Assembly (NCBI GenBank): GCA_016192705.1
Contig: JACPTQ010000071.1
Span: forward strand, 1 to 55,416
Direction: 5' to 3'
Source of the DNA: Deltaproteobacteria bacterium
GTDB lineage: Bacteria > Myxococcota > JACPTQ01
DNA: 55,416 nucleotides
Positions 3,179 to 35,786 of the stretch are shown one piece after another. The translations under genes and the position numbers were made by a program. Position 1 is the stretch's first letter, and each line of letters opens with the position of its first letter. Below the pieces are notes generated by a model. The model ran no database searches and had not been told where the DNA came from. It saw only the letters and a program-made list of their open reading frames with translations.

Positions 3179-4201
3179 CTACGACTCCAAGCCGGCACGG
3201 TAACTGGACCTCAAGGTGGCGTTGGCGAGCACTTCGTAAGCCTCATCAAGCCCCGCGCGCACTTCAGCGAGCGGGCCGGCGAGTGCGTCGCCAAGCGCTC
3301 TCGCGGCGTTGGAGCATTCGCGCGATGCCGCGTCAAACGCCGCTCGTACGTCGTCGTCCGATGCGTCGCGCGCGACGCGGAGGATTGTGAAGTAGTCAGA
3401 TTCGCGAATCTCCACAAGGCGGTCCTTGAGCCAAACGGCGTGGTCGTCTTGCGGCTTTGCGGCTGGGCTGAAGAGCGGCGATGATGCGCGAACGGGTGCG
3501 GATGCGGGAGCGGAGGCGGTTGCGGGAGCGGTTGCGGAAGCGGGTGCGGGTGCGGGTGCGGGTGCGGACGCGGTAGCGGATGCGGAGGCGGCAGCGGGCC
3601 CGGCGCCAAACCCGTTCGGTCGCGGCGCCGCAACGAACTCCACGCGCGGAAGCGAGATGACGTTTTTCGATACAACGACGGCGATCGGAGGCTGGGGTGG
3701 CAAATCGCGCTGTACGCCGTTTGTCGGCTCGGGCGCCGCGCCGGTTCGGTTTCGCTCGGAAGCCTCTCTAAGCGACCGTATCACTTTGCGATGTTGCAAT
3801 GACCGATCGATCGGCGGCGGGTCTCCCGACACCCCGGCAAACGTTTCAACGCGCCTCAACAGCCGCGATGCGGGTTCCGCGGTCGACAAAAAATCGTCCG
3901 CGCCGTTTGCGTGCGCCCACTGAAGCCCGCGCTCGGGACTCTCGAACGCCCCGCACACAATAATCGGAACATCGGGCCCGCCGTCGCGCGTTCGAACGGC
4001 TCGAATGAAAGTCGTCATGCGTTCCGGCTCGCTGGCATCAAGGATTCCAACAACGCATCCAACGCGCCAGAGCGAGACCGATTCGACATCGGTCGGCGAC
4101 TCGATCCGTCGCCGCTCACCCGGAACCGACGCAACCGCTTCCCACGCTGACTTTGCCCATTCTCCTTCGCGCTGACTCGCCTTTAGAAAGATGATCTGCA
4201 C
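3179..4201 (-). CDS. Receiver-like / low-complexity / J-domain-like protein
   Basis: A 340-residue protein starting at GTG. Residues 1-125 resemble a degenerate response-regulator receiver: alternating beta strands with VPIIVCGAF and ANGADDFLS, but no clear phospho-acceptor aspartate pocket. Residues about 200-240 are an Ala/Pro repeat encoded by a hexanucleotide tract. The C-terminus (about 260-340) resembles a J domain (DYFTILRVARDASDDDVRAA, then EAYEVL) but lacks the HPD tripeptide, so classical DnaK stimulation is unlikely. It lies 6 bases after the Cys-rich gene and 2 bases before fmt, apparently in one operon. Function unknown. Confidence 0.7.
   Translation of the reverse strand: MQIIFLKASQREGEWAKSAWEAVASVPGERRRIESPTDVESVSLWRVGCVVGILDASEPERMTTFIRAVRTRDGGPDVPIIVCGAFESPERGLQWAHANGADDFLSTAEPASRLLRRVETFAGVSGDPPPIDRSLQHRKVIRSLREASERNRTGAAPEPTNGVQRDLPPQPPIAVVVSKNVISLPRVEFVAAPRPNGFGAGPAAASASATASAPAPAPAPASATAPATASAPASAPVRASSPLFSPAAKPQDDHAVWLKDRLVEIRESDYFTILRVARDASDDDVRAAFDAASRECSNAARALGDALAGPLAEVRAGLDEAYEVLANATLRSSYRAGLES
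3493..3600 (+). repeat. (GCGGNN)n hexanucleotide tract
   Basis: About eighteen head-to-tail GCGGNN hexamers read on the plus strand, while the host gene (3179-4201) is on the minus strand, so they encode Pro-Ala/Ser-Ala/Thr-Ala. Related tracts at 7095, 10618 and 30413 lie in plus-strand genes and have the same strand polarity. Confidence 0.85.
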
Positions 4202-4207
4202 GTCCCG

Positions 4208-4546
4208 CTACCCGCCGTCCGCGCCAGCGTCGCCACCTGTTCCTCCAGCGTCGGACGATGCATCAGGTCCCGCGTCCGCCGCGCCCCCATCTTGAGCGCC
4301 CGCATCCGACGCGCCGCCGTCGGCCACATAGCAGCGCCCGTTGATGTCACAAATGTTCGACAGGCAGTCGGCGTTTCGGCGGCACTCGTACGTGCAAACT
4401 TTTGTCGACGACCGACAAAAGAATCCGAGGTCGCATTCGCCGTCGGCCGCGCACGCGTCGCCCTCCTTCCCCTTCGTGCATTCGATACCGAGAATCCCAA
4501 GCGCCACGCAGAGCAAAAGCGCACCCAACCGACGTCTTGCTGCCAT
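4208..4546 (-). CDS. Small Cys-rich secreted protein with Asp-Ala-Gly tail
   Basis: A protein of 112 residues. An N-terminal hydrophobic signal (about 6-22) ends at GIEC, a poor lipobox. A disulfide-type cysteine array follows (CAADGECDLGFFC, then CTYECRRNADCLSNIC, about 32-72), then an Asp/Ala/Gly-rich tail (about 76-112). This small EGF-like cysteine pattern with a DAG tail is seen in secreted myxobacterial-type proteins. It is first in the minus-strand run leading to fmt and rsmB. The ATG lies six bases after a TAGAAT box, so the message may be leaderless. Role unknown, probably at the cell surface. Confidence 0.7.
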   Translation of the reverse strand: MAARRRLGALLLCVALGILGIECTKGKEGDACAADGECDLGFFCRSSTKVCTYECRRNADCLSNICDINGRCYVADGGASDAGAQDGGAADAGPDASSDAGGTGGDAGADGG

Positions 4547-4552
4547 GCGGCC

Positions 4553-4581
4553 ATTCTACCCGATCGCGATGCGCGTAAGAA
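4553..4581 (-). promoter_or_regulatory. Candidate promoter giving a leaderless transcript
   Basis: Read on the minus strand, TTCTTA (4581-4576) and TAGAAT (4558-4553) are 17 bases apart. The -10 ends six bases before the ATG at 4546, so transcription should begin at or next to the start codon. The -35 matches only half of the consensus. Confidence 0.45.
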
Positions 4582-4937
4582 CACTCGTTGCGAGAGTGGC
4601 GGCTGAGACGGTTTTCAGATCGCGTGGCCGCTCGGCATGCTCACGGATGGTACCGGCGAGATTAGGAGGAGCGGATCGCGATCTTAGCGTGGGGTGTGGG
4701 AGGATCGCGAAGTCGCGCGTCCGCAGGGGCTGAGGTGTCATACGCGCACGGGTTTGCTTATACGCGCAAGACCTAAATCGATCCGTAGGTCGGACGTTTC
4801 AAGTCAGACCCGAGGACGTCCGCGCGACGAAGCGGACTCCAACATCCCCACGCCATAAGGGCGGTCATCCGCTTTCAATCAGATGCGCGGAAGAACACCG
4901 GTTGACACTCGCGGCGACACGGGTGAAAACAGAGTTA
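4582..4937. other. Intergenic region with repeat remnants
   Basis: There is no convincing gene here. It holds a remnant of the right end of the MITE-like element C (GCGTCCGCAGGGG, about 4717-4729, like 9369-9381) and element A copy 2 (4805-4885). TTGACA occurs at 4902, but no good -10 follows at 16-18 bases. Confidence 0.6.
4805..4885 (+). repeat. Element A, copy 2
   Basis: Starts CAGACCCGAGGACGTCCGCG and is closest to the minus-strand copy at 9073. Its distal half has diverged and no TATAAT is left. It points at the M50 protease gene whose start lies about 50 bases further on. Confidence 0.7.
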
Positions 4938-5666
4938 ATGGATTTCGATTTCCAGCGATTCATCCTCTTGGCCGTTACCTACTTCGTTCCGATGCTGTTG
5001 TCGTCGGCGGTGCACGAATACGCGCACGCGCGCTCGGCTTACGCACTCGGCGACGACACCGCGAGCCGCGAGGGGCGGATGACGCTGAACCCGTTTTCGC
5101 ACATCGACCTCTTTGGATCGATATTGCTGCCGCTCCTTTTCGTTTTCATGATCGTGCAAAACCCCGGCGCGATGGTGCCGTTCATCGCGTGGGCCAAGCC
5201 CGTCCCCTACAATCCGCTTCGGTTTACGCGACGCGTGTCGATGCGCGGCGGCGCGGCCATTGTCGCTGCAGCCGGCCCGCTCTCGAACCTCGTGCTCGCG
5301 GTTATCTCGACGGCCCTTCTTGCCGTGGCGTTTCATATCGACCCCACGTTGATGCGCTTTAACCCCACAACGATGGGATTTGAGAATCCAGCTTCCGAGC
5401 TTCTTTTTGCATTTTTGCGCATCAACGTTGGTCTTATGCTCTTCAACCTCATCCCGTTGCCGCCGCTCGATGGCAGTAAGGTCGTCGCGGCGTTTTCAAA
5501 AACGTACTCCGACCTGATGGACCGAATCGCGATGTTCACCTTTATCTTTATTATCTTGCTTGTGAACACGGAAGTCGGACGGACGATCTTTGGCCGACCG
5601 TACGTTTCGATCGTGAGCTGGCTCTATTCGCTCGCGGTTCCAGCGCCCATGGCCCTCGGCACCTGA
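4938..5666 (+). CDS. Site-2-protease-like zinc metalloprotease, M50 family
   Basis: A multispanning membrane protein of 242 residues belonging to the compact M50B group. The zinc motif HEYAH is at residues 26-30 in the first membrane segment. NPFSHIDLFGS (51-61) and the second zinc-ligand motif LPPLDGSKV (174-182, LDG) follow, all typical of intramembrane proteases. No PDZ or CBS domain is present. The frame is open from TTG 4902, but ATG 4938 gives the usual N-terminus; neither has a strong Shine-Dalgarno sequence. It is followed 9 bases later by scpA, a frequent neighbour of this family. The substrate cannot be told from sequence. Confidence 0.85.
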   Translation: MDFDFQRFILLAVTYFVPMLLSSAVHEYAHARSAYALGDDTASREGRMTLNPFSHIDLFGSILLPLLFVFMIVQNPGAMVPFIAWAKPVPYNPLRFTRRVSMRGGAAIVAAAGPLSNLVLAVISTALLAVAFHIDPTLMRFNPTTMGFENPASELLFAFLRINVGLMLFNLIPLPPLDGSKVVAAFSKTYSDLMDRIAMFTFIFIILLVNTEVGRTIFGRPYVSIVSWLYSLAVPAPMALGT

Positions 5667-5675
5667 AAGGGAAAA

Positions 5676-6542
5676 ATGGAAACAACGTCGGAGCCGACGC
5701 GAGACGCAATTGTTCATTTGACGCTCGACGCGTTTGAGGGGCCGCTCGATCTCCTCCTTCATTTGATTCAAAAGCACGAGATCGACGTCTTCGACATTCC
5801 CGTCGCGGTCGTCACCGAGAAGTACCTTGCGTACCTCGACCTCATGCGGACGTTGAACCTCGATGTGGCGGGCGAATACCTGCTCATGGCGGCGACGCTC
5901 ACACACATCAAGTCGCAGATGCTGCTCCCGAAACCCGAGCCGCTCCCGGGCGAGGAGCCCGAAGTCGATCCGCGCGAAGAGCTTGTGCGACGGCTGCTCG
6001 AATACCAAAAGTATAAGGACGCGGCGGCGCAGCTAACGGCGCGGCCAGTGCTCGGGCGCGATACGTTCGCGCGGGCGCCGGTGCTTGACGGTGTCGCGGG
6101 CGAGGACGAGCTTTCGGGTGGGCTCGTTGAGGTCGGGATTTATGCGCTGGTTGACGCCATGTCGCGCGTTATCGAGCGGGTCGGCAAAGACCTCGCACAC
6201 GAAGTGCGGCCCGAAGGGATTTCGATCATGGTGCGAATGCGCGAGATATGCGAGCGCTTTATGGCTGTGAAATCGGTTGTATTTGATGAGTTGTTCGAAG
6301 GGAAGATCGCGCGGGCAGACGTGGTTGTGACGTTTTTGGCGTTGCTTGAGCTTTGCCGACTGCGCGTTGTGAAGCTTTACCAGCGCAGCAAAGACGATGT
6401 GCTCCATATCGTGCGCGCGGTCGAGGAGATGGGCGAAGCGGAGTTGGGGATGCTGTCGGAAGCGGATGCGGGTGCGGAGGCGGGACCAGTTGCGGAAGTC
6501 GGTAGCCGGGAGCCGGCCGCCGGATCGGGAGGTGCGGCGTGA
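5676..6542 (+). CDS. scpA: Segregation and condensation protein A
   Basis: The kleisin subunit of the SMC-ScpAB condensin, acting on chromosome compaction and segregation. The 288-residue protein has the family start FEGPLDLLLHLIQKHEIDV (about 18-36) and VAGEYLLMAATLTHIKSQML, and a C-terminal winged helix with VVTFLALLELCRL, which binds the SMC head. AGGGAAAA precedes the ATG. The last 25 residues are low complexity, encoded by GCGGNN hexamers and a GTAGCCGGGAG-type repeat. Its end overlaps the scpB GTG, so the two are translationally coupled. Confidence 0.93.
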   Translation: METTSEPTRDAIVHLTLDAFEGPLDLLLHLIQKHEIDVFDIPVAVVTEKYLAYLDLMRTLNLDVAGEYLLMAATLTHIKSQMLLPKPEPLPGEEPEVDPREELVRRLLEYQKYKDAAAQLTARPVLGRDTFARAPVLDGVAGEDELSGGLVEVGIYALVDAMSRVIERVGKDLAHEVRPEGISIMVRMREICERFMAVKSVVFDELFEGKIARADVVVTFLALLELCRLRVVKLYQRSKDDVLHIVRAVEEMGEAELGMLSEADAGAEAGPVAEVGSREPAAGSGGAA

Positions 6543-7273
6543 GCGCGGTGTCGCGGTTGGCAGCTGAGATTGAGTCGGTTCTTTTTACGTCGGCGCGTCC
6601 GGTCACGGCGCGCGAGCTGAAATCGGTTGTGGGGGCGAAGACGTCGGAAATTGCGGATGCGATCCGCGAGCTGTCTCTCGAGTACACCCTAGCGGGCCAC
6701 GGGTTTGAGGTGTGCGAAGTCGCGGGCGGGTATCTTTTGCGGAGTCGCGCGGAGTTCGCGGAGTCGATTCGGAAGCTGCACCAAAAACGCCCGACGCGGC
6801 TGTCGCGGCCGGCGCTCGAGACGCTCGCGGTTGTCGCGTATAAGCAGCCGATCACGCGACCGGAAATCGAGCAGCTTCGGGGTGTCGATTGTGGCGCGGT
6901 GATGAAGTCGCTTCTCGATCATCGTCTCGTGAAAATCATTGGGCGAAAAGACGAAATCGGGCGTCCGCTGCTTTACGGGACGACAAAGGAGTTTTTGGAG
7001 TTTTTTGGATTGCGCGATTTGACGTCGTTGCCGACGTTGCGGGAATTCGCGGAGATTAACGACCGTGTGGATCGGGAAGAAGACGGGGAAGAAGGAGCGG
7101 GAGCGGGAGCGGATGCAGTAGCGGGGGCGGTGGCGGATGCGGTAGCGGATGCGGTAGCGGGCGCGGAAGCGGAAGCGGGCGCGGAAGCGGAAGCGGGCGC
7201 GGAAGCGGAAGCGGAAGCGGAAGCGGGCGCGGGAGCGGGAGCGGATGGCGTCGCGAGCGTCAGCCGGGGTTAG
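6539..7273 (+). CDS. scpB: Segregation and condensation protein B with Ala/Glu/Gly tail
   Basis: A winged-helix partner of ScpA in the SMC complex. Residues 1-180 are a normal ScpB: ESVLFTSARPVT near the start, then LSRPALETLAVVAYKQPITR and GRPLLYGTT in the second winged helix. Residues about 185-240 are an unusual acidic Ala/Gly/Glu tail encoded entirely by a GCGGNN hexamer tract; typical ScpB lacks it. The start is GTG 6539, overlapping the scpA stop, and the end overlaps the pseudouridine synthase gene by 29 bases. Confidence 0.93.
   Translation: MSAVSRLAAEIESVLFTSARPVTARELKSVVGAKTSEIADAIRELSLEYTLAGHGFEVCEVAGGYLLRSRAEFAESIRKLHQKRPTRLSRPALETLAVVAYKQPITRPEIEQLRGVDCGAVMKSLLDHRLVKIIGRKDEIGRPLLYGTTKEFLEFFGLRDLTSLPTLREFAEINDRVDREEDGEEGAGAGADAVAGAVADAVADAVAGAEAEAGAEAEAGAEAEAEAEAGAGAGADGVASVSRG
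7095..7246 (+). repeat. (GCGGNN)n hexanucleotide tract in scpB
   Basis: About 25 tandem GCGGNN hexamers (mostly GCGGAA, GCGGGC and GCGGGA) encode the Ala-x dipeptide tail of ScpB. This is the longest uninterrupted tract in the first 10 kb. It stops just after the start codon of the next gene. Confidence 0.9.
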
Positions 7274-8120
7274 GCTTCAGAAGGTTCTGGCGCACGCGGG
7301 GGTCGCATCGCGTCGTGCGGCCGAGGCGATGATCCGGGCGGGGCGAGTGACCGTAAATGGCGAAGTCGTGACGGCGATGGGGACCAAGGTCAACCCGGCG
7401 CGCGACAAAGTCGTGGTTGACGGCAGCGACGTCGCGGTCGAGCGCGAGACGCGCGTCTATTATCTCCTCAATAAACCGCCCCGTATGATTTCTTCGGCGT
7501 CGGATCCCGAGGGGCGGCCCACGGTGCTTGACGGATTGCGCGACGAGATTTCGGAGCGGGTTTTTCCAGTCGGGAGGCTCGATTGGGACGCGGAAGGCGC
7601 GATGCTTCTGACGAATGACGGCGATCTCGCCGAAGCGCTCTTGCATCCGCGTAACTCCGTGCCGCGAACGTACTTCGTGAAGGTGCGCGGCGTTCCGCCT
7701 GATGCGGTCATGAAGCGCGTCGCGTCAGGGCTGCGCCTCGATGACGGTCCGACACGCAAGGCGGACGTCAAGCTCGTTGCGGTGACCGCGAAGAACAGCT
7801 GGGTGCGGATGACGATGCGCGAAGGCCGGAATCGTCAGGTCAAGCGGATGTGGGAGGCGGTCGGGTTTCCGGTTCTCAAGCTGAAGCGCGAAGCGTTTGC
7901 GGGGTTGACCGTTGATGACCTACCGATGGGGGCGTGTCGGCGGTTGAGGCCGAGGGAGGTCGCGGTGCTCTGGGATGCGGTGAAGAAGAGAGGAGAAGAA
8001 AAGAGAAATGCAACCACAGAGACACAGAGGCACAGAGATCTGACGGGGAAGAAAAAAGGGATAAGAAAGGGAAAGCGGATTCAGGGGTTATTGCGGAAGC
8101 CCGTAGCCGGGAGTCGGTAG
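7245..8120 (+). CDS. rluB: rRNA pseudouridine synthase, RsuA/RluB family
   Basis: Isomerises specific uridines in rRNA to pseudouridine. The S4 RNA-binding domain is at about 9-60 (VRLQKVLAHAGVASRRAAE). The catalytic domain carries GRLDWDAEGAMLLTNDG with catalytic Asp113, then EGRNRQVKRM (about 193-202). Residues beyond about 250 are not part of the family: NATTETQRHR (about 255-264) comes from a CACAGAG-type repeat and KPVAGSR from a GTAGCCGGGAGTCGGTAG repeat, so the 3' end was extended by repeat insertion. RluB is the best guess, but RsuA or RluE specificity cannot be separated from sequence alone. It is last in the M50-scpA-scpB operon. Confidence 0.9.
   Translation: MASRASAGVRLQKVLAHAGVASRRAAEAMIRAGRVTVNGEVVTAMGTKVNPARDKVVVDGSDVAVERETRVYYLLNKPPRMISSASDPEGRPTVLDGLRDEISERVFPVGRLDWDAEGAMLLTNDGDLAEALLHPRNSVPRTYFVKVRGVPPDAVMKRVASGLRLDDGPTRKADVKLVAVTAKNSWVRMTMREGRNRQVKRMWEAVGFPVLKLKREAFAGLTVDDLPMGACRRLRPREVAVLWDAVKKRGEEKRNATTETQRHRDLTGKKKGIRKGKRIQGLLRKPVAGSR
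8008..8060 (+). repeat. CACAGAGACACAGAG-family repeat inside the rluB 3' end
   Basis: AATGCAACCACAGAGACACAG is followed by GAGATCTGACGGGGAAGA and an A-run. It matches 10571-10610, 34431-34480 and both arms of the palindrome at 42716-42831. It is translated here as NATTETQRHRDLTG. Confidence 0.85.
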
Positions 8121-11151: not shown

Positions 11152-13681
11152 CAGGCCGCTGAAACACGTTTTACTCGCGGTTGCAGTGACCGCGGCGGTC
11201 CTGGTCGAGGTTGGTGCGGCTCAATCGGCAACTCCCGCGCGGGTCGCGAAAATTCGTGCGGCTATTTTGCGCGGAAAAACGGCCGACGCACAGAAGCTGT
11301 TTGAGCCGATTGCGAAGCGATACAAGGCGGGCGCACTCAAATCCGCCGCGGCGCTACATGCGGCGGCGCTTATGCTTGTCGAGCTTGCGCGCCTGCCCAA
11401 TTCGAAGGAGCGCTACCACGACGCGAATCGCCTTTTCTTTGAAGCGAAAGAGGCCGACCCTAAGCGGGCTCAGGTGTTCATCGACTGGGGGATGCTTTAC
11501 GTCGAGAAGTACGACACCGAGGAAGCGGCGAAAAAGTTCAACCTGGCGCTCGCACTCGAGCCCGAGAATGTCGATGCCATTGCCGGCCTTGCGCGCGTGG
11601 CGTATGCGTCGTTTGACTACGCGACGGCGATAGAGCGCGTTGGGCGCGTGCTCGCGAAGAAGCCGCGGCATCCCTTGGCGATTCGAACGCGCGCCGAGAT
11701 CGCCGTTAATGAGGACGACTTGCCGGCTGCGGCGACGGCCTTGAGTCGCCTCGAGGCCGCGGACCCGCGCGGTCCCGCGACGTCGGGGCTTCGCGCGGCG
11801 GTTGCTTACTTTCGCGGCGACAAGCAGCGCTACGAAGCGGAGCGGAAAGGTTGGGCGAAGCTCGGTCCCTTGGTGAGCCTCGCGGCGGGGGTTTTGCTCG
11901 AGCATCTCGTCAAACGTTTTCAATACGCCGAAATCGAGCGGGTGACGCGCGACGCACTTGTAACGGCGCCCTACTCCGCGCCGCTTCTGGTCGAGCGCGG
12001 CATGAACGCGATGCGACTCGGCGAAGAGGCGATGGCGCAAAAGACGCTCGACGCCGCGCACAAGCAGGACCCGTTTCATCAGCAGCTCATCGCGATGCTC
12101 AATTTTGTCGAGAAGGCGCTTGTGCCTTACCGATGGCATGAAGACGGGGTGCTCCGGCTGCGCCTCCACGAGGGCGACACGGAGCCACTTTTGCCGCTCG
12201 TTGGCGCGCTCGTGCGGCGCGCGATCGATTCGATGTCGCGTCGATTCGCTTATGCGCCCGAGAGGGTCACGCTCGAACTTTTCAAAACGCACCAGGAGTT
12301 TTCGCTGCGCACAATGGGTGTTCCGGCACTCGGCGCGCTCGGGGTTTGCTTTGGTCCGGTTGTGACAGCGGTGGCGCCGCCGCGGGCGGGGGCGCGGGTC
12401 AATTGGGGGCAAATCCTGTGGCACGAGCTGTCGCACGTTTTTTCGATCGCGTTGTCGCGTGGGCGTGCGCCGCGCTGGTTTGGCGAGGGGCTCGCGGTTG
12501 TCGAGGAGGGCGAGGGGCGGCCGGAGTGGGCGCGAGAGATGTCGGTCGAGATGCACCGGGCGATCGCTCGGGGGCGCGTGCTGTCGGTTGCGAAGCTGAC
12601 AACGGCCTTCACGCGCGCGCGGTCGCACGCGGACATGCTGCTTGCCTATCATCAGTCATCGCGCGTTGTGGCGTTCATCAAGGAGCGTTGGGGCTGGGAC
12701 GCGGTGACGCGGGTGCTCACCGTGTTCGGCGATGGGAAGACGACGCCGGAGGTCGTGAAGGCCGTGACGGGGCTAGAGGTCGCGGAGTTCGACGCCGCGT
12801 TTCTTGAATGGCTGAAAAAATCGGTCGCGTTTTTGGATGGGCAGTTCGACGTTGATCCAGCGCGGTATCGCGACATCCCTGCGATTCGAAAGGCGGCCAC
12901 GGACGCGCCGGCCGATCTCGACCGGCAGGCCGCACTTGCGGCGGCACTTCATGTACATGGCGCCCATCAACCGGCGCTCGCGGTTGCGGAACGTATCGTC
13001 GGGCGCGACGTCGTTCATCCGCTTGCGCGCTATGTTGCGGGGGCCGCGGCATCGGCGCTCGGGCAATTTGAGGTCGCGAAAAAGAATTTTGAGGCGCTGC
13101 GCACAGCGGGCGTCGACGGTCATCTCCTTCGCGCGGCGCTCGGTTTCGTGTATAGAAAGCTGAACGATGAGGCGCGGGCGGAGGTTGAGTACGTGAAGGC
13201 GCGGGAGTTGAACCCGGAGCTGTCGAGTGCGATTGCGGTGGTCGCGGAGCTGCGGGCGGCACGTGGGGAACCGGATGGCGCGCTCAGCGAGTGGCGGCGG
13301 CTTGCGGCGTTTGACCAGGCGAACGGTAAGGCGATGCGCGCGGTGCTCGCCGCGGCCGAAAAGCAGAAGGACGCGAAGGCGGTGGTCGACGCGGCGGAGG
13401 CGCTCCTTTTTTTAGAGCCGTACGACGCGGCGGTGCACGTGGCTCTTGCGCGGGCGCGACGTGAGGCGGGGCGCCTGGACGACGCGGCGCAGTCATTCGC
13501 GACGGCGGTTGCGCTCACACCCAATGCTGGCGCGGATTTGCGGGTTGAGGCGGCGATCGTGATGCTTGACGCGGGGAAACGTGGGGCGGCCTGCGCGGAG
13601 ATTGACGCCGTATTGAAGACGGATGCGGAACATCCGGTCGCCAAGGACCTCAAAGCGCGATGCGAGGCGCCAACGCCATGA
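11135..13681 (+). CDS. Exported TPR protein with peptidase-MA-like zinc protease domain
   Basis: An 848-residue protein with an N-terminal signal segment (about 8-28). TPR repeats occupy about 40-330 and again 600-845. The middle is a gluzincin-type domain: HELSH (His430, Glu431, His434) and WFGEGLAV (Glu451) 17 residues later, matching the peptidase MA family. GTG 11135 was chosen over the upstream open frame because it starts the signal sequence and overlaps the preceding gene by only 17 bases. It overlaps the following kelch-like gene as ATGA. Probably periplasmic or envelope-attached; the substrate is unknown. Confidence 0.85.
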   Translation: MSFKISRPLKHVLLAVAVTAAVLVEVGAAQSATPARVAKIRAAILRGKTADAQKLFEPIAKRYKAGALKSAAALHAAALMLVELARLPNSKERYHDANRLFFEAKEADPKRAQVFIDWGMLYVEKYDTEEAAKKFNLALALEPENVDAIAGLARVAYASFDYATAIERVGRVLAKKPRHPLAIRTRAEIAVNEDDLPAAATALSRLEAADPRGPATSGLRAAVAYFRGDKQRYEAERKGWAKLGPLVSLAAGVLLEHLVKRFQYAEIERVTRDALVTAPYSAPLLVERGMNAMRLGEEAMAQKTLDAAHKQDPFHQQLIAMLNFVEKALVPYRWHEDGVLRLRLHEGDTEPLLPLVGALVRRAIDSMSRRFAYAPERVTLELFKTHQEFSLRTMGVPALGALGVCFGPVVTAVAPPRAGARVNWGQILWHELSHVFSIALSRGRAPRWFGEGLAVVEEGEGRPEWAREMSVEMHRAIARGRVLSVAKLTTAFTRARSHADMLLAYHQSSRVVAFIKERWGWDAVTRVLTVFGDGKTTPEVVKAVTGLEVAEFDAAFLEWLKKSVAFLDGQFDVDPARYRDIPAIRKAATDAPADLDRQAALAAALHVHGAHQPALAVAERIVGRDVVHPLARYVAGAAASALGQFEVAKKNFEALRTAGVDGHLLRAALGFVYRKLNDEARAEVEYVKARELNPELSSAIAVVAELRAARGEPDGALSEWRRLAAFDQANGKAMRAVLAAAEKQKDAKAVVDAAEALLFLEPYDAAVHVALARARREAGRLDDAAQSFATAVALTPNAGADLRVEAAIVMLDAGKRGAACAEIDAVLKTDAEHPVAKDLKARCEAPTP

Positions 13682-15012
13682 CCGGGCGACGCGTTTGTTT
13701 ATCGTGTGCCGCAATCGCGAGCGCGGCTGTCGCTCTGACCTGCACAACGACGACGACGATTCCGGGCGCTTCGTCGGTCGTCAGCCTTGTTGTGGGCAAT
13801 GCCGACACATCTGATTCTCAAACTTTCGCGCGGCTTGTCTATTTCCCAAGCGGCGGTTCGACATGCCGGAAGGACATCACAACTGAGCCCAGCCAGTGGG
13901 CACGCACACTCACGGCCACGGACCATGGCGTTCCGCTGTCGCTCTTTGGCGCAGGGTCGCGTGTCGCGGTGGAGCAGCGACGGAATAGCGATTCCGTGGT
14001 TGTTCGACAAGGGCTGTCCGGGCCGGTGCACGCCGTCGGCGGTGGATTGTCGGTGTTCGTGAACTTGTCGCCCGCGCGCGCGGTTGGTGCGATGCGAGAC
14101 CTTAATTTCGGTCGGTACGCCGCGCAGGCGATCTACGTGAGTGCTACAGGCGGAATCCTTGTTGTTGGTGGATTGAAGGCGGGCGCTTCCGATTTCGCCA
14201 TCAACGCTGCGGCGGATTTCGAGCCAAACATCGAGTACCTTGACCCGGCGACCGGGAAATGGATCGTCGTCGGCGACGCGGGCGAAGGTCGTCGCGTGCA
14301 CCACACGGTGTCCGAACTTGCGGACGGCCGGATTGTCGCGCTCGGTGGTGTTTTCGGTGCGACGGCCGTGGCGAGCGATCTCGTATTTGACCCGACGACG
14401 CGGCGCCTGGATGTGATCGACGCGTCGGTTGTGCCCGCGGTGTTTGGCCACTCGGCGACGGTTCTTTACGACAGCGCGAGGGCGCTCACGAACCGGGTCC
14501 TCGTGTTTGGCGGCGCGACGACCCTGGTCGCCGATGCGGGCGATGCGCTGCTCCCGCTCGCGGGTCTCCAGAAGAAGTGGACGCTCGTCGATTTTTCGGG
14601 GAGCACGCCGCAGGTTACGTCAAGTGAACCCGCGGGTGCGATCGAGCTTGCGTTTCATCGGGCGGCGATCACGCGCGAGACGAGCGAGTCGGCGGTCTAT
14701 TGGGTGGGTGGCGTGACGGGGACGCCGCTCAGGGCGACAAGCCGGATTTTCGAGCTGCGGCATTTGGCGAATCCGTTTCAGTTCGCGTCATCGACGTCGT
14801 CACTTTCTACGGCGCGTGTTTTTCACGTCGCGTTTCAGACGAGCCTCAGTGAGGCAACCAACATTGTCACTGGCCGTGGCGCGTGCGGGGCACGCCGTTG
14901 CGTCGCTTCCGGTCGGGACCGTAACCGTGGCGTCGTCGGGCTTGCCGTCGGTCGCGACGGTGCCAGTGGTTGTCGGCGGGCGCAGCGCGGCGGGTGGTTT
15001 GAGCAAAGTTGA
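13678..15012 (+). CDS. Kelch-like exported protein, frameshifted (part 1)
   Basis: Starts at an ATGA overlap with the TPR protease gene. An N-terminal signal ends at VALTC, a weak lipobox. Beta-propeller/kelch-like repeats follow, shown by recurring VVGGL, ALGGV, VFGGA and WVGGV strands and TAR/HH motifs. From about codon 400 the translation becomes atypical (GACGARRCVASGRDRNRG), while the +1 frame from about 14850 to 15199 reads like more kelch sequence. The gene is therefore probably one frame-shifted unit, 13678-15199, with the shift near 14850-14880. This could be real decay or a sequencing error. Function: surface or periplasmic propeller, ligand unknown. Confidence 0.65.
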   Translation: MTGRRVCLSCAAIASAAVALTCTTTTTIPGASSVVSLVVGNADTSDSQTFARLVYFPSGGSTCRKDITTEPSQWARTLTATDHGVPLSLFGAGSRVAVEQRRNSDSVVVRQGLSGPVHAVGGGLSVFVNLSPARAVGAMRDLNFGRYAAQAIYVSATGGILVVGGLKAGASDFAINAAADFEPNIEYLDPATGKWIVVGDAGEGRRVHHTVSELADGRIVALGGVFGATAVASDLVFDPTTRRLDVIDASVVPAVFGHSATVLYDSARALTNRVLVFGGATTLVADAGDALLPLAGLQKKWTLVDFSGSTPQVTSSEPAGAIELAFHRAAITRETSESAVYWVGGVTGTPLRATSRIFELRHLANPFQFASSTSSLSTARVFHVAFQTSLSEATNIVTGRGACGARRCVASGRDRNRGVVGLAVGRDGASGCRRAQRGGWFEQS

Positions 15013-15199
15013 GGTGGTCGCGGATGCTGGATTCTCGGTGGCCGCTGAGATCGCCCGCGGGACGGGCGCAGCGGTTGCGTCGACTCCGTGGGGCGTTGTG
15101 GTGATTGGCGGACAGGACGGCGGCGCTGGTGAGCGATCGGTTTCGACGTATGCGGACCTCGTTACGTACGCGGTTGGCGGTGTTTCGGAGTGTCCTTAG
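14816..15199 (+). CDS. Kelch-like protein, frameshifted remainder (part 2)
   Basis: The +1 frame continuing the preceding kelch-like protein: VARAGHAVASLPVG and VPVVVGGRSAAGG, then WGVVVIGGQDGG, are blade-like. The nominal start in this frame has no Shine-Dalgarno sequence, so it is better read as the C-terminus of the 13678 gene after a one-base frame change. The stop at 15199 lies 10 bases before the next lipoprotein gene. Confidence 0.5.
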   Translation: MFFTSRFRRASVRQPTLSLAVARAGHAVASLPVGTVTVASSGLPSVATVPVVVGGRSAAGGLSKVEVVADAGFSVAAEIARGTGAAVASTPWGVVVIGGQDGGAGERSVSTYADLVTYAVGGVSECP

Positions 15200-17663: not shown

Positions 17664-20135
17664 CTACATCTTGATTGGCCGCAGCCCTGATTCTTGCAAT
17701 CTCTTCACATCGAGAATGACGACCGACGATCGCGCGAGGTCGGCGCCGTTGAAGTAGAGCCCGCGTTCGAGAAGCTGCCGCGAAAACGGCCGCCCACTTT
17801 TGAAGGCGCGCGCATCGAGCTCGGGGAAGTCGAACAGCTTTTCGGCGGCCTGTACGGCCCGCTCGAACTCGTGCCCAAAGTGGTTCGTGTCGAACGCGAC
17901 GAAGCGCTCGCGATCGCGCTCGCGGATGCGCCAGGCGACAATGGCGTGGCCGCGCGTCGGAAAGAGGACGAGCAGCGGATCGAGCTCGACCAGGCGGAGC
18001 GTGCTCGCCATCAAGATCGACAACTCAATGCAGTTGCCGCCGCGTTCCTTGAGTGTTTGCGCGGGGAATTTCACGACCTGTGTCGTCAGCGAGTAGTCGA
18101 CCTTCAAGTGTCCCTCGACTTCGGGCGAATTTGAGTAGTCGATTTTGAAGTCGCGCACGAGCGCCTCATACAGCGCGCGCACTTGCCGCGTTTGGGCCTT
18201 CGGTGCTGTCAGCGCGAGGTTAAAACTCGCCGGCGACTGATAACCGATGAACGGCGTCGTTGGGTCGCGCTGACGCGCCTTGACGAGAACGTCGCGCACT
18301 TGGCCCTCCTCGACCCAGGCGACGAGCGTATCCCAGAGCGACACACCGCCTTCCTCGCCGAGGTATGAAAAGAGAGGCGAGAAACGGTTGTTCGCGAGTA
18401 CTTTGAGGAATCCCGTCTCAACGCGAAGCGGCTCGACGCTGCCATCGGGGCGAATCCGCTCGACGCGAATCTCGAAGTAGTTTCCGGTTTGGTCGGACGT
18501 GAACGATTTGAAGACGCTCGACTGGAACGTCACGTACAGCGGAACCTTGCGTTCGTCGTCGGGGCCGAGCTCGAATGTCTCTTGAAGGAGGTGCGTGCGC
18601 TGTTTGATTTGGTGCGAAATCTTGATGGTCACCGGCGTGTCACCGTTGTTGCGCAGCTTGACCTTGGCGAACGGCACCTCTTTGAAGCGGTAAATCGCGT
18701 GAATCGCAGATGGGAGGCCGACTTCCGGGTCGACGTGCCGAATCTCGACGGCAATTCGTTCGCGCGGGGCGACGACGGGGCGTTGCGCGGCGCTCGGTTC
18801 GCCTTTGAGGGCGCGCGCGGAGGTTCGCGGGTTGTCGAGTCCGTGTTCGGTGGATGAGCCGAACGCGAAAAGAAAAACGAGGAGTGCGACGGGGACAAGC
18901 GCGAGGAGCGTGAGGCCCGCGTAAATGAAGCGAACGGTGTGGGTTGTGCGCGCGAGTTTGTGGCGGCCAGGAAGCACCTTTGGCACAAGCGATGAAAACG
19001 GCTCGAGCTTATCGTCGTTGAGTTCGAGGTAGCCGCGGCGCTCAAGGTGGCGAACCGCGGGGTCGTTCGCGGCGCTCGCGGGCAGTGGGGCCCGCTCCAG
19101 GATCGCGCGTTCGTCGGCGGCCAGACGCGAAACGAGGTAGCGCAGGTAACTTGCCGATTCGTCGAGCGCGCGTTCGCGCACCATGGTTTCGCGGACGGGC
19201 GATTGCCCAAGTGTTTCCGCGAGCTCGTCGAAGAAAATCGCGCAGACGATTTGAAGCGTCAGCGGGAAGCGACCCGAAAGGGCCTGAATTCTCTCAGCGT
19301 ACGGAAGGAGCGGGTAGTTTTCGCGGGCGGATGGTATGGCGATGAGTTCGCGCGCTTCGGCGTGCGTCAAGGGGCCGAGCCGAAACTCGGTGAACGTGGC
19401 GGCGATGCGCGCAAGGCGCGCGCCGTGGGTGCGAACAAGGGCGGTCGGTCCCGCGACCGATAGGAGCAGCATCGCGATGTGCGGAAGGCGCGCGAGGTCG
19501 GCGAGACCCACGAAGAACTTTTCGTCGAACGCGGCATTGTCAAGGAGCGCGTCAAACTCGTCGACCACGATGACGAGCTGCGGGTGGTGAAGCGGGCGCG
19601 GCGTTGCCGTGGTCGTTGAAACGTCTTCCTTGGGCGTCACCATCCCGAGCCCGTTTTCGGCGCCGGCCGCGACGAGGGCGCGCGTGAGAACTTCGAAAAA
19701 CGCGTCGGGGTCGTAGGGGGCGATTTCGAGGGCGTCAACGCGTGCAATCGGGACCCGAACGCCATCGCCATCGCGGATGCGTCTTTCGAGAGCGGCGGCG
19801 AGGGACGACTTGCCGATGCGCCGCTCGCCGACGAGGGCCGTGGGAACGCGCGCGGGGCCGACCACGGTGCGCTCAAGCTCAGTCAGTTCGCGTGCGCGCC
19901 CAACGAACGCGGTCGGGTCGTCGATGCGGCCGCGGTGGAAATACGGGTTGCGTCCGCGGCGCCGCCCGTCCTCGACGGCGAGCTCGCGCTCCGCCGTGCG
20001 CTTGAGTTTCTCTGGGAGCTTGAACCGGCGCGTTGTTTCGATGAGCCGATTCTTTTGTTCGGGGGAATCGGCCGAGCGCACAATTCGAAGCAGCTCTTTG
20101 TAGATTTCTTGCTCGAGTACTTCGTCCTTCGGCAC
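17664..20135 (-). CDS. STAND-type ATPase / transmembrane / transglutaminase-like fusion
   Basis: An 823-residue fusion starting at GTG, with AGGA eight bases upstream. Residues 60-300 are a STAND/AAA-type NTPase: NPYFHRGRIDDPTAFVGR, Walker A GERRIGKSS (103-111), Walker B LVIVVDEFD (187-195). Residues about 315-390 look like a winged helix. One membrane helix lies at about 403-425. The remainder should be periplasmic: a beta-rich region (about 455-585), then a transglutaminase-like domain with GGNCIELS (Cys702), RGHAIVAW (His730) and FDTNHFG (Asp749), a complete Cys-His-Asp triad. I know of no described system with this order. It converges with the Vps62-like gene 3 bases away. Possible roles are envelope stress sensing, proteolysis or defence; unproven. 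Confidence 0.8.
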   Translation of the reverse strand: MPKDEVLEQEIYKELLRIVRSADSPEQKNRLIETTRRFKLPEKLKRTAERELAVEDGRRRGRNPYFHRGRIDDPTAFVGRARELTELERTVVGPARVPTALVGERRIGKSSLAAALERRIRDGDGVRVPIARVDALEIAPYDPDAFFEVLTRALVAAGAENGLGMVTPKEDVSTTTATPRPLHHPQLVIVVDEFDALLDNAAFDEKFFVGLADLARLPHIAMLLLSVAGPTALVRTHGARLARIAATFTEFRLGPLTHAEARELIAIPSARENYPLLPYAERIQALSGRFPLTLQIVCAIFFDELAETLGQSPVRETMVRERALDESASYLRYLVSRLAADERAILERAPLPASAANDPAVRHLERRGYLELNDDKLEPFSSLVPKVLPGRHKLARTTHTVRFIYAGLTLLALVPVALLVFLFAFGSSTEHGLDNPRTSARALKGEPSAAQRPVVAPRERIAVEIRHVDPEVGLPSAIHAIYRFKEVPFAKVKLRNNGDTPVTIKISHQIKQRTHLLQETFELGPDDERKVPLYVTFQSSVFKSFTSDQTGNYFEIRVERIRPDGSVEPLRVETGFLKVLANNRFSPLFSYLGEEGGVSLWDTLVAWVEEGQVRDVLVKARQRDPTTPFIGYQSPASFNLALTAPKAQTRQVRALYEALVRDFKIDYSNSPEVEGHLKVDYSLTTQVVKFPAQTLKERGGNCIELSILMASTLRLVELDPLLVLFPTRGHAIVAWRIRERDRERFVAFDTNHFGHEFERAVQAAEKLFDFPELDARAFKSGRPFSRQLLERGLYFNGADLARSSVVILDVKRLQESGLRPIKM

Positions 20136-20227: not shown

Positions 20228-21255
20228 TTATTGCATGCCGCCATCCGAGTTGTATTTGACGACGAAGATGTCTTCGAACCCCGCGTTTGTGTACCCGTCG
20301 AGCCCGCCATAGGTATAGCCCGCGATATAGGCGATCCCACTTGTGTCGATCGCAACGCCGTTGCCATAGTCATCTGACGATGTCCCGAGCTGTCTTGTCC
20401 ACTCTTTGCCACCGTCCGAGCTGTATTTGACGAGGAAGATGTCGCGGGACCCCGCGTTCGCGTTCCCGTCGAGCCCGCCATAGGTAAAGCCCGTGACAAA
20501 GGCGTTTCCGCTTGTATCGACCGCAACGCCATAGCCATAGTCACCTGCCGGCGTCCCGAGCTGCCTTGTCCATTCCTTACCACCGTCCGAGTTGTATTTG
20601 ACAAGGAAGATATCGCCGGGCCCCGCGTTCGTGTTTCCGTCGAGCCCGCCATTGGTATAGCCCGTGACATAGGCGTTTCCGCTTGTATCGACCGCGACGC
20701 CGTAGGCATAGTCGGATAGCGATGTCCCGAGTTGCCTTGTCCACTCTTTGCCACCGTCCGAGCTGTATTTGACGAGGAAGATGTCGCTGAGCCCCTGGTT
20801 CGCGTTCCCGTCGAGCCCGCCATAGGTAAAGCCCGCGACATAGGCGTTTCCGCTCGTATCGACCGCAACGCCGTTGCCATAGTCATCTGACGATGTCCCG
20901 AGCTGTCTTGTCCACTCTTTGCCACCGTCCGAGCTGTATTTGACGAGGAAGATGTCGCGGGACCCCGCGTTCGCGTTCCCGTCGAGCCCGCCAAGGGTAT
21001 AGCCCGCGACATAGGCGTTTCCGTTTGTATCGACCGCAACGCCGCTGCCATAGTCGTCTGCCGATGTTCCGAGCTGCCTTGTCCACTCTTTGCCACCGTC
21101 CGAGTTGTATTTGACAAGGAATATGTCGGCGGACCCCGCGTTCGTGTTCCCGTCGAGCGCGCCAAAGGTATAGCCCGTGACATAGGCGTTTCCGCTCGTA
21201 TCGACCGCGACGCCGAAGCCATAATCGCTAACCGACGTCCCGAGCTGCCTTGTGC
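20228..21255 (-). repeat. Six 171-base tandem repeats
   Basis: Exact periodicity of 171 bases (for example CACCGTCCGA at 20410, 20581 and onward) encodes the six 57-residue SBBP units. Neighbouring units are so similar that recent duplication or gene conversion is likely. Confidence 0.9.
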
Positions 21256-22576
21256 CCGTCCCGGTCCCTCGCAGCGCACGGGCTGCGGTCTGGTCTCCAG
21301 CGCCGTCGTTGTACCCGAGGCCGATCGAATCGGTCGCGAGCCCCGCGCTGCTCGGCGCGAAGCGAACGATGAGCGTGCAGCTCCCCGCGGCGGCGAGTGT
21401 GCCCCACGTCACGCACGTCCCGCCAGCCTGAAGGGCAAACGGTGCGGCGAGCCCGAGCCCCACGTCGGTCACTGTTCCAAGCGTCGCCCCGTACCCACCG
21501 GAATTTGTGACCGTTAGTGTCTTGTCGGTCGTCAACGCGGTTGACTTCGATCCGTAGTCGTACGTCACTCCATCCGAGATCGTGAGGACGGCCGGCAACA
21601 CCCCGAATCCTCGCACCGCGCGCGAAGCGGTCTGGCCCGTGACGCCGTCGTTGTACGCGAGGTCGATCGAATCGGTTGCGAGCCCCGCGAGGCTCGGCGC
21701 GAAGCGAACGATGAGCATGCAGATCCCCGCGGCGGCGACCGTGCCACCCGTCGCGCATGTCCCGCCAGCCTGAAGGGAAAACGGCGCGGCAAGCCCGAGG
21801 CCCGCGTCTGTCAATGTTCCCAGCGTCGCCGCGGCGCCACCAGAATTCATGACCAGGAACGTCTTGTCGGTCGTCGAGCCGGTGGCCTTCGTCGCGAAGT
21901 CGAACGTCGGTCCCTCCGAGATCGTGAGGACGGCTGGAGTCGTCCCCGCGTCGCCTCCCGCATCGGCCCCGGCGTCACTTCCCGAGTCCGCCGCCCCCGC
22001 GTCACTTCCCGCATCCGCTACCCCCGCATCTGTTCCAGCATCGGCGTCGGTACCCGCATCGGCCCCGGTATCACTTCCCGAGTCCGCCGCCCCCGTCCCT
22101 TGCACCGCGCGCGAAGCGGTTTGGCCTGTGACGCCGTCGTTGTACCCGAGGTCGATCGAATCGGTCGCGAGCCCCACCGTGCTCGGCGCGAAACGAACGA
22201 TGAGCATGCAGATCCCCGCGGCGGCGACCGTGCCCCCCGTCGCGCATGTCCCGCCCGCCTGCACGGCAAACGGCGCGGCCAGCCCGAGCCCCACGTCGGT
22301 CACCGTTCCGAGCGTCGCCGCGACGCCACCGGAATTCATGACCATGAACGTCTTGTCGATCGCCGAACCGGTGGCCTTCGCCCCGAAGTCGAACGTCGGT
22401 CCGTCCGAGATCGTGAGCACCGCCGGCGCCGCCCCCGCGTCACTTCCAGCATCCACGCCGGTCCCCGCGTCACTACCCGCCCCCGCATCGCTTCCCGCTC
22501 CTGATCCCGACTTCCCGCACGCGAGCAGAAGAGGAAAAACGAAAACGAAACTGAGTCCACACTTCAAGAGCCGCAT
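20228..22576 (-). CDS. Lipoprotein with ASH-like domains and SBBP beta-propeller repeats
   Basis: A 782-residue protein. The lipobox LLAC (Cys20) is followed by an Asp-Ala-Gly linker. Three ASH/choice-of-anchor-type beta-sandwich repeats (each with VMNSGG or VTNSGG, then TLGT, then IVRFAPS) are broken by a second DAG linker (about 160-205). Six near-identical 57-residue SBBP repeats finish it, each built like TRQLGTSxxDYGxGVAVD, then GNAYVTGYT, then DIFLVKYNSDGGKEW. The frame is open to 23611, but ATG 22576 has GGAGG five bases upstream and begins the signal peptide. Likely a surface-exposed adhesin or binding protein. Confidence 0.85.
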   Translation of the reverse strand: MRLLKCGLSFVFVFPLLLACGKSGSGAGSDAGAGSDAGTGVDAGSDAGAAPAVLTISDGPTFDFGAKATGSAIDKTFMVMNSGGVAATLGTVTDVGLGLAAPFAVQAGGTCATGGTVAAAGICMLIVRFAPSTVGLATDSIDLGYNDGVTGQTASRAVQGTGAADSGSDTGADAGTDADAGTDAGVADAGSDAGAADSGSDAGADAGGDAGTTPAVLTISEGPTFDFATKATGSTTDKTFLVMNSGGAAATLGTLTDAGLGLAAPFSLQAGGTCATGGTVAAAGICMLIVRFAPSLAGLATDSIDLAYNDGVTGQTASRAVRGFGVLPAVLTISDGVTYDYGSKSTALTTDKTLTVTNSGGYGATLGTVTDVGLGLAAPFALQAGGTCVTWGTLAAAGSCTLIVRFAPSSAGLATDSIGLGYNDGAGDQTAARALRGTGTGTRQLGTSVSDYGFGVAVDTSGNAYVTGYTFGALDGNTNAGSADIFLVKYNSDGGKEWTRQLGTSADDYGSGVAVDTNGNAYVAGYTLGGLDGNANAGSRDIFLVKYSSDGGKEWTRQLGTSSDDYGNGVAVDTSGNAYVAGFTYGGLDGNANQGLSDIFLVKYSSDGGKEWTRQLGTSLSDYAYGVAVDTSGNAYVTGYTNGGLDGNTNAGPGDIFLVKYNSDGGKEWTRQLGTPAGDYGYGVAVDTSGNAFVTGFTYGGLDGNANAGSRDIFLVKYSSDGGKEWTRQLGTSSDDYGNGVAIDTSGIAYIAGYTYGGLDGYTNAGFEDIFVVKYNSDGGMQ

Positions 22577-35175: not shown

Positions 35176-35400
35176 ATGTTGAAAACGCGTATCCGAAAAA
35201 TCGGAAACAGCCATGGGATTCTTTTGCCGTCACAGGCCATCCGGTATTGGCGGGCCAAAAGCGGGACTGAGGTCGAGCTGGTGTTTGATGCGGACCGCCT
35301 CATCATTCGGCCGGTGTCGGGCGACCGCGATGGCTTCGTGAGAGCGTTGGATGAAGTCCTCGACGAAGACGAGGCGATTTTGCGTGACTTGGCGAAGTGA
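35176..35400 (+). CDS. SpoVT-AbrB/MazE-type antitoxin
   Basis: A 74-residue protein with a swapped-hairpin AbrB fold at the N-terminus: KTRIRKIGNSHGILLPSQAI, then GTEVELVFDADRLIIRPV. The acidic C-terminus (ALDEVLDEDEAILRD) would wrap the toxin. It overlaps the toxin GTG (GTGA), the usual antitoxin-first order. ATG 35176 was chosen over 35149, which lies upstream of the promoter box. By analogy with known modules it should bind its own promoter and neutralise Doc. Confidence 0.88.
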   Translation: MLKTRIRKIGNSHGILLPSQAIRYWRAKSGTEVELVFDADRLIIRPVSGDRDGFVRALDEVLDEDEAILRDLAK

Positions 35401-35786
35401 AGGCGATTCGATTCTTAACGGTTCAAGAAGTTCTCGAGGCTCACGCGGCAACCCTTCGACGGCATGGCGGCGCGTCGGGCATTCGAGACACAGGTCTGCT
35501 CGACTCAGCCGTGCATATGGCGCAGGCGATGTACGGCGGCGAATTTCTGCATCCGGGTTTGTTCGACATGGCGGCGGCATATCTTTTTCACCTTGTCCTG
35601 AATCACCCCTTCATCGACGGGAACAAGCGGTGCGGGTGGCTGGCCGCTCGGGTTTTTCTTCGAATGAACGGCGTCGCACTTAGCGTTTCACGCGGGGAGG
35701 CCGTTCGTCTCGTGACGCGCCTCGCGGATGGTAAGGTCCGGGACTGGCGTGAAATATCTGAGTCGTTTGCGAAGCGAAGTCGTTGA
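35397..35786 (+). CDS. doc: Doc-family (Fic fold) toxin
   Basis: A 129-residue Fic/Doc protein with active-site motif HPFIDGNKR (about 65-73) and the preceding helix AMYGGEFLHPGLFDMAAAYLF typical of Doc. Known Doc proteins phosphorylate EF-Tu and stop translation. The motif keeps the His, Asp and Asn/Lys/Arg needed for catalysis, so it looks active. It is paired with an AbrB-type rather than a Phd-type antitoxin. Confidence 0.9.
   Translation: MKAIRFLTVQEVLEAHAATLRRHGGASGIRDTGLLDSAVHMAQAMYGGEFLHPGLFDMAAAYLFHLVLNHPFIDGNKRCGWLAARVFLRMNGVALSVSRGEAVRLVTRLADGKVRDWREISESFAKRSR

Follow-up and report, generated by a model that had tools for sequence, protein, structure and literature searches.

A single gene in the window, the 55,416-nucleotide stretch of DNA that was analyzed, encodes a protein of 823 amino acids in which a STAND-type NTPase is joined through one membrane helix to an Ig-like domain and a transglutaminase-like (TGL) domain with an intact catalytic triad. 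The reading we favor, to which we assign a probability of roughly 0.48, is that the product crosses the inner membrane once and that its STAND NTPase, a switch on the cytoplasmic side, would control a periplasmic Ig-TGL cysteine enzyme. A first-pass annotation of the sequence had proposed a STAND NTPase, a membrane helix and a TGL domain in one protein, and this was confirmed, as the open reading frame is real and the residues lie where they were placed. Its domain order and intact triad also stood, whereas the strand, the Ig-like domain and a helical N-terminal segment of about 60 amino acids had been missed. The features are as follows.

17664..20135, minus strand: whole gene, 823 aa, GTG start (open reading frame list)
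19956..20135, minus strand: N-terminal helical segment, aa 1-60, three predicted helices (AlphaFold model, block pLDDT about 47-70)
19101..19907, minus strand: STAND/AAA+ NTPase core, aa 77-345 (Pfam, fold, profile matches)
19803..19829, minus strand: Walker A, GERRIGKSS, aa 103-111 (G103, G108, K109 and S111 invariant in 8 rows)
19551..19577, minus strand: Walker B, LVIVVDEFD, aa 187-195 (D192 and E193 invariant in 8 rows)
18861..18929, minus strand: single membrane helix, aa 403-425 (19-residue hydropathy 2.65)
18381..18761, minus strand: Ig-like beta sandwich, about aa 459-585 (AlphaFold model, VIA matches)
17667..18380, minus strand: TGL (papain-fold) domain, aa 586-823 (alignment, NCBIfam, fold)
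18030..18032, minus strand: Cys702, at a helix start (invariant, 23/23)
17946..17948, minus strand: His730, at a strand start (invariant, 23/23)
17889..17891, minus strand: Asp749, just after the next strand (Glu in 17 and Asp in 6 of 23)
20231..22570, minus strand: upstream gene region, SBBP repeats and HYDIN-type Ig domains (Pfam)

Read on the plus strand, the interval of the gene contains stops. On the minus strand, G+C at the three codon positions was 0.70/0.43/0.77 over the whole frame, which is coding-like. A chimeric join is not suggested, because the coding-like pattern holds throughout and is similar in the two halves.

The N-terminal part contains the STAND-type NTPase that had been predicted, with both Walker motifs confirmed. 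The Pfam family nSTAND2 (PF20702) matched aa 186-345 above its cut-off (E = 2.3e-13, 50.5 bits versus 24), covering positions 112-269 of a 279-position profile, and AAA_16 matched aa 77-208 below its cut-off. In STAND proteins the helical bundle after the NTPase carries a G-x-P motif; at the corresponding position, SGRFPLTLQ, P291 was invariant in 8 rows and is the firm part of the motif because the residue two places before it, where the glycine would be, is an arginine and lacks a clear register in every row. By sequence profile, the closest solved structures were the archaeal ATPases 2qen (3e-9) and 2fna (1.7e-7), which we take to be STAND members. The N-terminal AlphaFold model (pLDDT 59.8) is usable only from about aa 80 to 300, and in VIA it was closest to AAA+ proteins of the ORC/Cdc6 kind (best Z 17.3), with 2qen and 2fna at Z 16.0 and 15.9, so fold alone does not distinguish a STAND protein from an ORC-like AAA+ one. 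Within alignment A3, which consists of just 8 divergent rows, no conserved arginine was clear as the arginine finger expected of a two-gene nSTAND2 system. In aa 312-440, where a winged helix would be expected, the model fell below pLDDT 50 and the sole profile match was a weak one to TrmB (E = 0.15). We conclude that the nSTAND2 match and the invariant P291 moderately favor a STAND identity over an ORC-like AAA+ one.

C-terminal sensor repeats are usual in STAND proteins, although they are not strictly defining. A Pfam scan of the protein detected no TPR, WD40 or LRR repeats, and the membrane helix, Ig-like and TGL domains stand where such repeats usually are. Pfam gave no match above cut-off in aa 1-60, and no EAD or death-like domain was recognized in aa 1-75. 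Searched alone, the N-terminal part matched in 9 of 195 genomes of the phylum, and the nSTAND2 profile in 9 of 195, with 5 above cut-off. In these 195 genomes, the NTPase relatives found by BLAST are ATPases of STAND type that carry WD40 repeats, Ig-like domains or kinase-like regions, the kinase reading (L012) having been made by eye from the sequence. In one STAND protein (genome G165, locus L028, 1039-3681, minus strand), a CARDB Ig-like domain precedes the NTPase and a membrane helix is predicted at aa 153-171, a combination of STAND, Ig and membrane helix in an order other than that of the fusion protein; the same genome also encodes a separate CARDB-TGL protein (L073).

The membrane helix lies where it had been predicted, and aa 407-425 are the sole segment of the protein above the hydropathy threshold used. 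The 20 residues flanking it on the N-terminal side include 5 positive and 0 negative charges, those on the C-terminal side 3 positive and 2 negative, and the C-terminal half has a single cysteine, the catalytic Cys702. Moreover, 19 of 22 non-helicase relatives of the Ig-TGL module have an export-like hydrophobic N terminus by a hydropathy criterion set for this analysis. Because of the flank charges, the lone catalytic cysteine and the mostly exported relatives, we infer that the likely topology is N-in, C-out, which puts the ATPase in the cytoplasm and the enzyme in the periplasm. The earlier claim of opposite compartments is thus likely, although the Ig-TGL module alone leaves the compartment unfixed, as ProA-type helicases carry it too and there it is presumably cytosolic.

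The C-terminal AlphaFold model (pLDDT 76.9, pTM 0.76) consists of an Ig sandwich followed by an alpha/beta domain, with low confidence at aa 441-457, 674-682, 778-783 and 785-787 (model residues 1-17, 234-242, 338-343 and 345-347). In VIA, the Ig-like part matched the Ig domains of factor XIII and protein 4.2 and the FixG-related structure 2r39 (Z about 8.7-10), and FixG_C matched it sub-threshold in Pfam. The alpha/beta domain matched yeast PNGase (3esw, Z 9.1, rmsd 4.1, 156 residues aligned; 1x3w, Z 8.8, 166 aligned), so the structural check of the C-terminal domain found the TGL fold present in the model. Foldseek alone returned low TM-scores only, many of them from the Ig part. Rows titled LapG or TgpA were absent from the best 50 VIA matches, which excludes neither, and the BTLCP/LapG family was not among Pfam matches at E up to 10, though hmmscan filters drop weak matches.

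Transglut_core (PF01841) scored below its cut-off of 23 in Pfam, with 15.6 bits for the whole protein and 17.4 bits for the C-terminal part. The NCBIfam model for the anti-phage protein ProA (NF058533) matched aa 644-753 (E = 5e-10) with 37.4 bits versus a cut-off of 1500, over positions 154-253 of 1903. In alignment A2, composed of the fusion protein and 22 selected relatives (weaker ones, such as proteins with HEAT repeats and a length of about 1500 aa, were omitted), the Cys-His pair was kept in 23/23 rows and position 749 was Asp or Glu in 23/23; Y667 was also invariant. The intact triad that had been reported is borne out by this conservation and by the papain-like order and fold, but the accompanying term protease holds only in part, as protease is just one activity of the superfamily. 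We conclude that, despite the sub-cut-off Pfam scores, a TGL identity is supported by the alignment of the 22 relatives, the ProA match and the predicted fold.

A search for the same architecture elsewhere recovered the fusion only in the window's own genome among the genomes examined. BLAST matched somewhere in 22 of 195 genomes of the phylum (best 5 candidates per genome), and among the matches listed none was full length outside the own genome. An Ig-TGL profile found 32 of 195 genomes and at least 39 places, own included (best 10 per genome). The comparison genomes are resolved only to the level of the same phylum, so a family confined to closer kin would be invisible among them. Public genome contigs were scanned with short back-translated patterns, a non-exhaustive method: the whole-protein pattern gave 48 stretches and 0 relatives, and that of Ig-TGL alignment A1 gave 6 loci from 92 stretches, 5 of them under Myxococcota titles and 1 under the title Deltaproteobacteria only. 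Relatives numbered 0 of 2 and 0 of 14 pattern stretches in viral contigs, and tblastn gave no match in plasmids and phages.

The loci compared contained 45 Ig-TGL frames, or 40 proteins after subtraction of four frames from second copies of a contig and one for a protein split by a stop. The split protein (L080, 3-3332 and 3336-4388, plus strand) is interrupted by one in-frame stop and continues in the same frame. A STAND profile built from just 8 rows matched in the same frame in 0 of the 40 other Ig-TGL proteins, and across the full locus set the only frames with both STAND and Ig-TGL were copies of the window gene. An upstream STAND domain could be missed in some cases because the frame runs off the contig end (e.g., L031, L069, L073 and L077). 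In a tree, the TGL domain of the fusion protein sat on a long branch and was placed with no class. As the fusion has no ortholog, the coupling of its parts has no argument from conservation behind it. We conclude that Ig-TGL is a module known from other proteins and that its join to a STAND NTPase via a membrane helix was seen in no other genome searched.

The gene starts 92 bases after the same-strand SBBP/HYDIN gene, with which co-transcription is possible, and a promoter scan of the gene found none. Its 3′ end lies 3 bases from a convergent open reading frame without a Pfam match, and other neighbors encode Kelch, TPR, peptidase MA, response regulator and HTH domains (Pfam). Among the 10 window proteins scanned with Pfam, no substrate, inhibitor or partner gene was recognized, nor any sign of the defense-island context that had been raised for this locus. 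PADLOC returned only PDC-S27 for the fusion protein (E = 0.032, over the NTPase) and matched 0 of 23 Ig-TGL sequences, and by eye no neighbor was shared in 6 loci of exported relatives. The window also contains a Fic/Doc protein 15 kb away (35397-35783, plus strand; PF02661, E = 5e-17) and a Kelch-type open reading frame (13660-15199, plus strand), the downstream part of which overlaps another in a different frame (14816-15199), a possible frameshift.

In the reading we favor, an internal cue would cause the NTPase to exchange nucleotide and oligomerize, the membrane helix and the Ig domain would transmit the state of the NTPase across the membrane, and the TGL domains, thereby brought together or uncovered, would cut or cross-link envelope proteins, with cell death, shedding of surface proteins or remodeling of the envelope as candidate outcomes. 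We infer the oligomerization, the inside-to-outside direction and the catalytic activity of this TGL domain. Two things favor an inside-out direction: the triad is retained at the enzyme end, and periplasmic TGL-fold enzymes elsewhere are controlled from the cytoplasm (LapD/LapG) or govern the cell surface and phage sensitivity (HvyA). In canonical STANDs the C-terminal part is the sensor, and signaling would therefore run in reverse here, which is the main counter-argument. A stronger version, which we regard as doubtful, makes the protein a transmembrane switch for death or remodeling, in which the cytoplasmic STAND oligomer would directly drive a ProA-type periplasmic TGL peptidase, so that an internal alarm (e.g., phage infection) would be executed on the envelope by one protein with neither a second messenger nor a separate effector.

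If the canonical polarity were kept, the periplasmic Ig-TGL part would bind or cut an envelope or phage ligand and the STAND domain would relay the signal inward, with effectors recruited via the helical N terminus. The three predicted helices of aa 1-60 could serve as such an adaptor, and a predicted periplasmic placement has been described for a NACHT-lectin target (PMC10907252, in part). A pure receptor would not need the fully kept triad, however, and no EAD or death-like domain was recognized near the N terminus, and thus we regard an outside-in sensor as unlikely. Alternatively, the protein could be a membrane-anchored housekeeping enzyme of the envelope, akin to TgpA, in which the ATPase would aid assembly or localization and have no switch or defense role. 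NTPases of the STAND class are usually regulated switches, and the lack of an ortholog in 195 phylum genomes is unlike a conserved housekeeping factor, making this explanation rather improbable even though no defense genes were recognized among the scanned neighbors. In its favor, the periplasmic TG domain of TgpA is critical for viability (PMC3507681, in part).

That both domains are cytoplasmic, with the helix monotopic or buried and the TGL domain acting inside as it presumably does in ProA, would fit the presence of the same module in ProA-type helicases, where there is no reason for export; the hydropathy of the helix, the asymmetry of its flank charges and the exported appearance of 19/22 non-helicase relatives render it quite improbable. 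An assembly or gene-fusion artefact, or a decaying chimera in one draft genome, is very improbable given one uninterrupted frame, two coding-like halves and intact catalytic motifs, although the gene is a singleton in an assembly of 88 contigs (G000).

The usual picture of STAND switches has them act on effectors that share their compartment. If true, a direct fusion that crosses the inner membrane and ends in an envelope enzyme would be a compact route from an internal signal to a change at the cell surface. The protein also connects exported proteins with a module that takes its name, ProA, from anti-phage activity, which suggests that the Ig-TGL block is a portable enzyme cassette.

Among known systems, DUF4011 helicases of the ProA/MTES_1575 type carry the same N-terminal Ig-TGL module (NF058533, BLAST). 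They differ in having DUF4011, helicase and nuclease domains, where the fusion protein instead has a STAND NTPase and a membrane helix, and the fusion protein gave no full-length ProA match that includes the DUF4011 helicase. Elsewhere in its own genome (contig C3, 94000-104000, locus L126), a ProA-like frame of 1357 aa (3691-7761, minus strand) matches the profile only from 452, apparently lacks the Ig-TGL part and adjoins a frame whose sequence, judged by eye, resembles an HsdR-like helicase of type I restriction. One giant protein combines TGL, SF-I helicase, Vsr REase and HEPN domains, and its TGL domain is predicted to cleave proteins in defense (PMC3710099, in part). Exported TPR-Ig-TGL and Ig-TGL-TPR proteins of Myxococcota are homologous to the fusion protein over the length of Ig-TGL and share its C-H-(D/E) triad, but where the fusion protein has its STAND domain and membrane helix, they have an export-like N terminus and repeats of the TPR or HEAT type. 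Seven loci (L067, L068, L070, L071, L072, L074 and L076) encode exported-looking proteins in which TPRs come after Ig-TGL and some of which begin with HEAT repeats, and Transglut_core was below cut-off in those of the group that were scanned.

The polypeptide order STAND-helix-Ig-TGL was not found in the open-licence literature, a scope outside which most subscription journals lie. The earlier statement that no described system has this order is upheld to that extent. Already in print, however, are TGL peptidases linked to NTPase-based conflict systems, as well as a STAND (NACHT) protein for which a periplasmic part is predicted (PMC10907252, in part). The nSTAND2 systems, which share the NTPase family, are mobile two-gene operons directed against invaders, in which the partner STAND is inactive and carries a GT4 or HEPN fusion (PMC8195603, in part); no partner STAND gene was among the 10 Pfam-scanned window proteins, both neighbors included, and a TGL effector is not mentioned for these systems in the part of that source used. 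TGL peptidases do occur in the NTP-dependent ternary conflict systems VMAP and TERNS3 (PMC7159879 and PMC8195603, in part), which likewise link a TGL peptidase to a regulated NTPase system. Those are MoxR-vWA based and differ in domain order, and the portions of the two papers used describe no coupling across a membrane.

Parallels for the placement of the enzyme come from the envelope, as far as excerpts of the cited papers describe them. TgpA is an inner-membrane protein that, like the fusion protein, has a membrane-anchored TGL domain in the periplasm (here a likely placement), but it has six predicted helices and the excerpt describes no NTPase in the polypeptide (PMC3507681). HvyA is a periplasmic TGL-fold enzyme that governs the surface and phage sensitivity (PMC4241560), and LapG is a periplasmic TGL-fold cysteine enzyme controlled from the cytoplasm via LapD (PMC3032545 and PMC4359373). 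LapD/LapG and HvyA differ in being separate proteins, with enzymes of the BTLCP family, and LapD uses c-di-GMP rather than an NTPase switch. By analogy, inside-out control like that of LapD/LapG, here within one polypeptide, is plausible.
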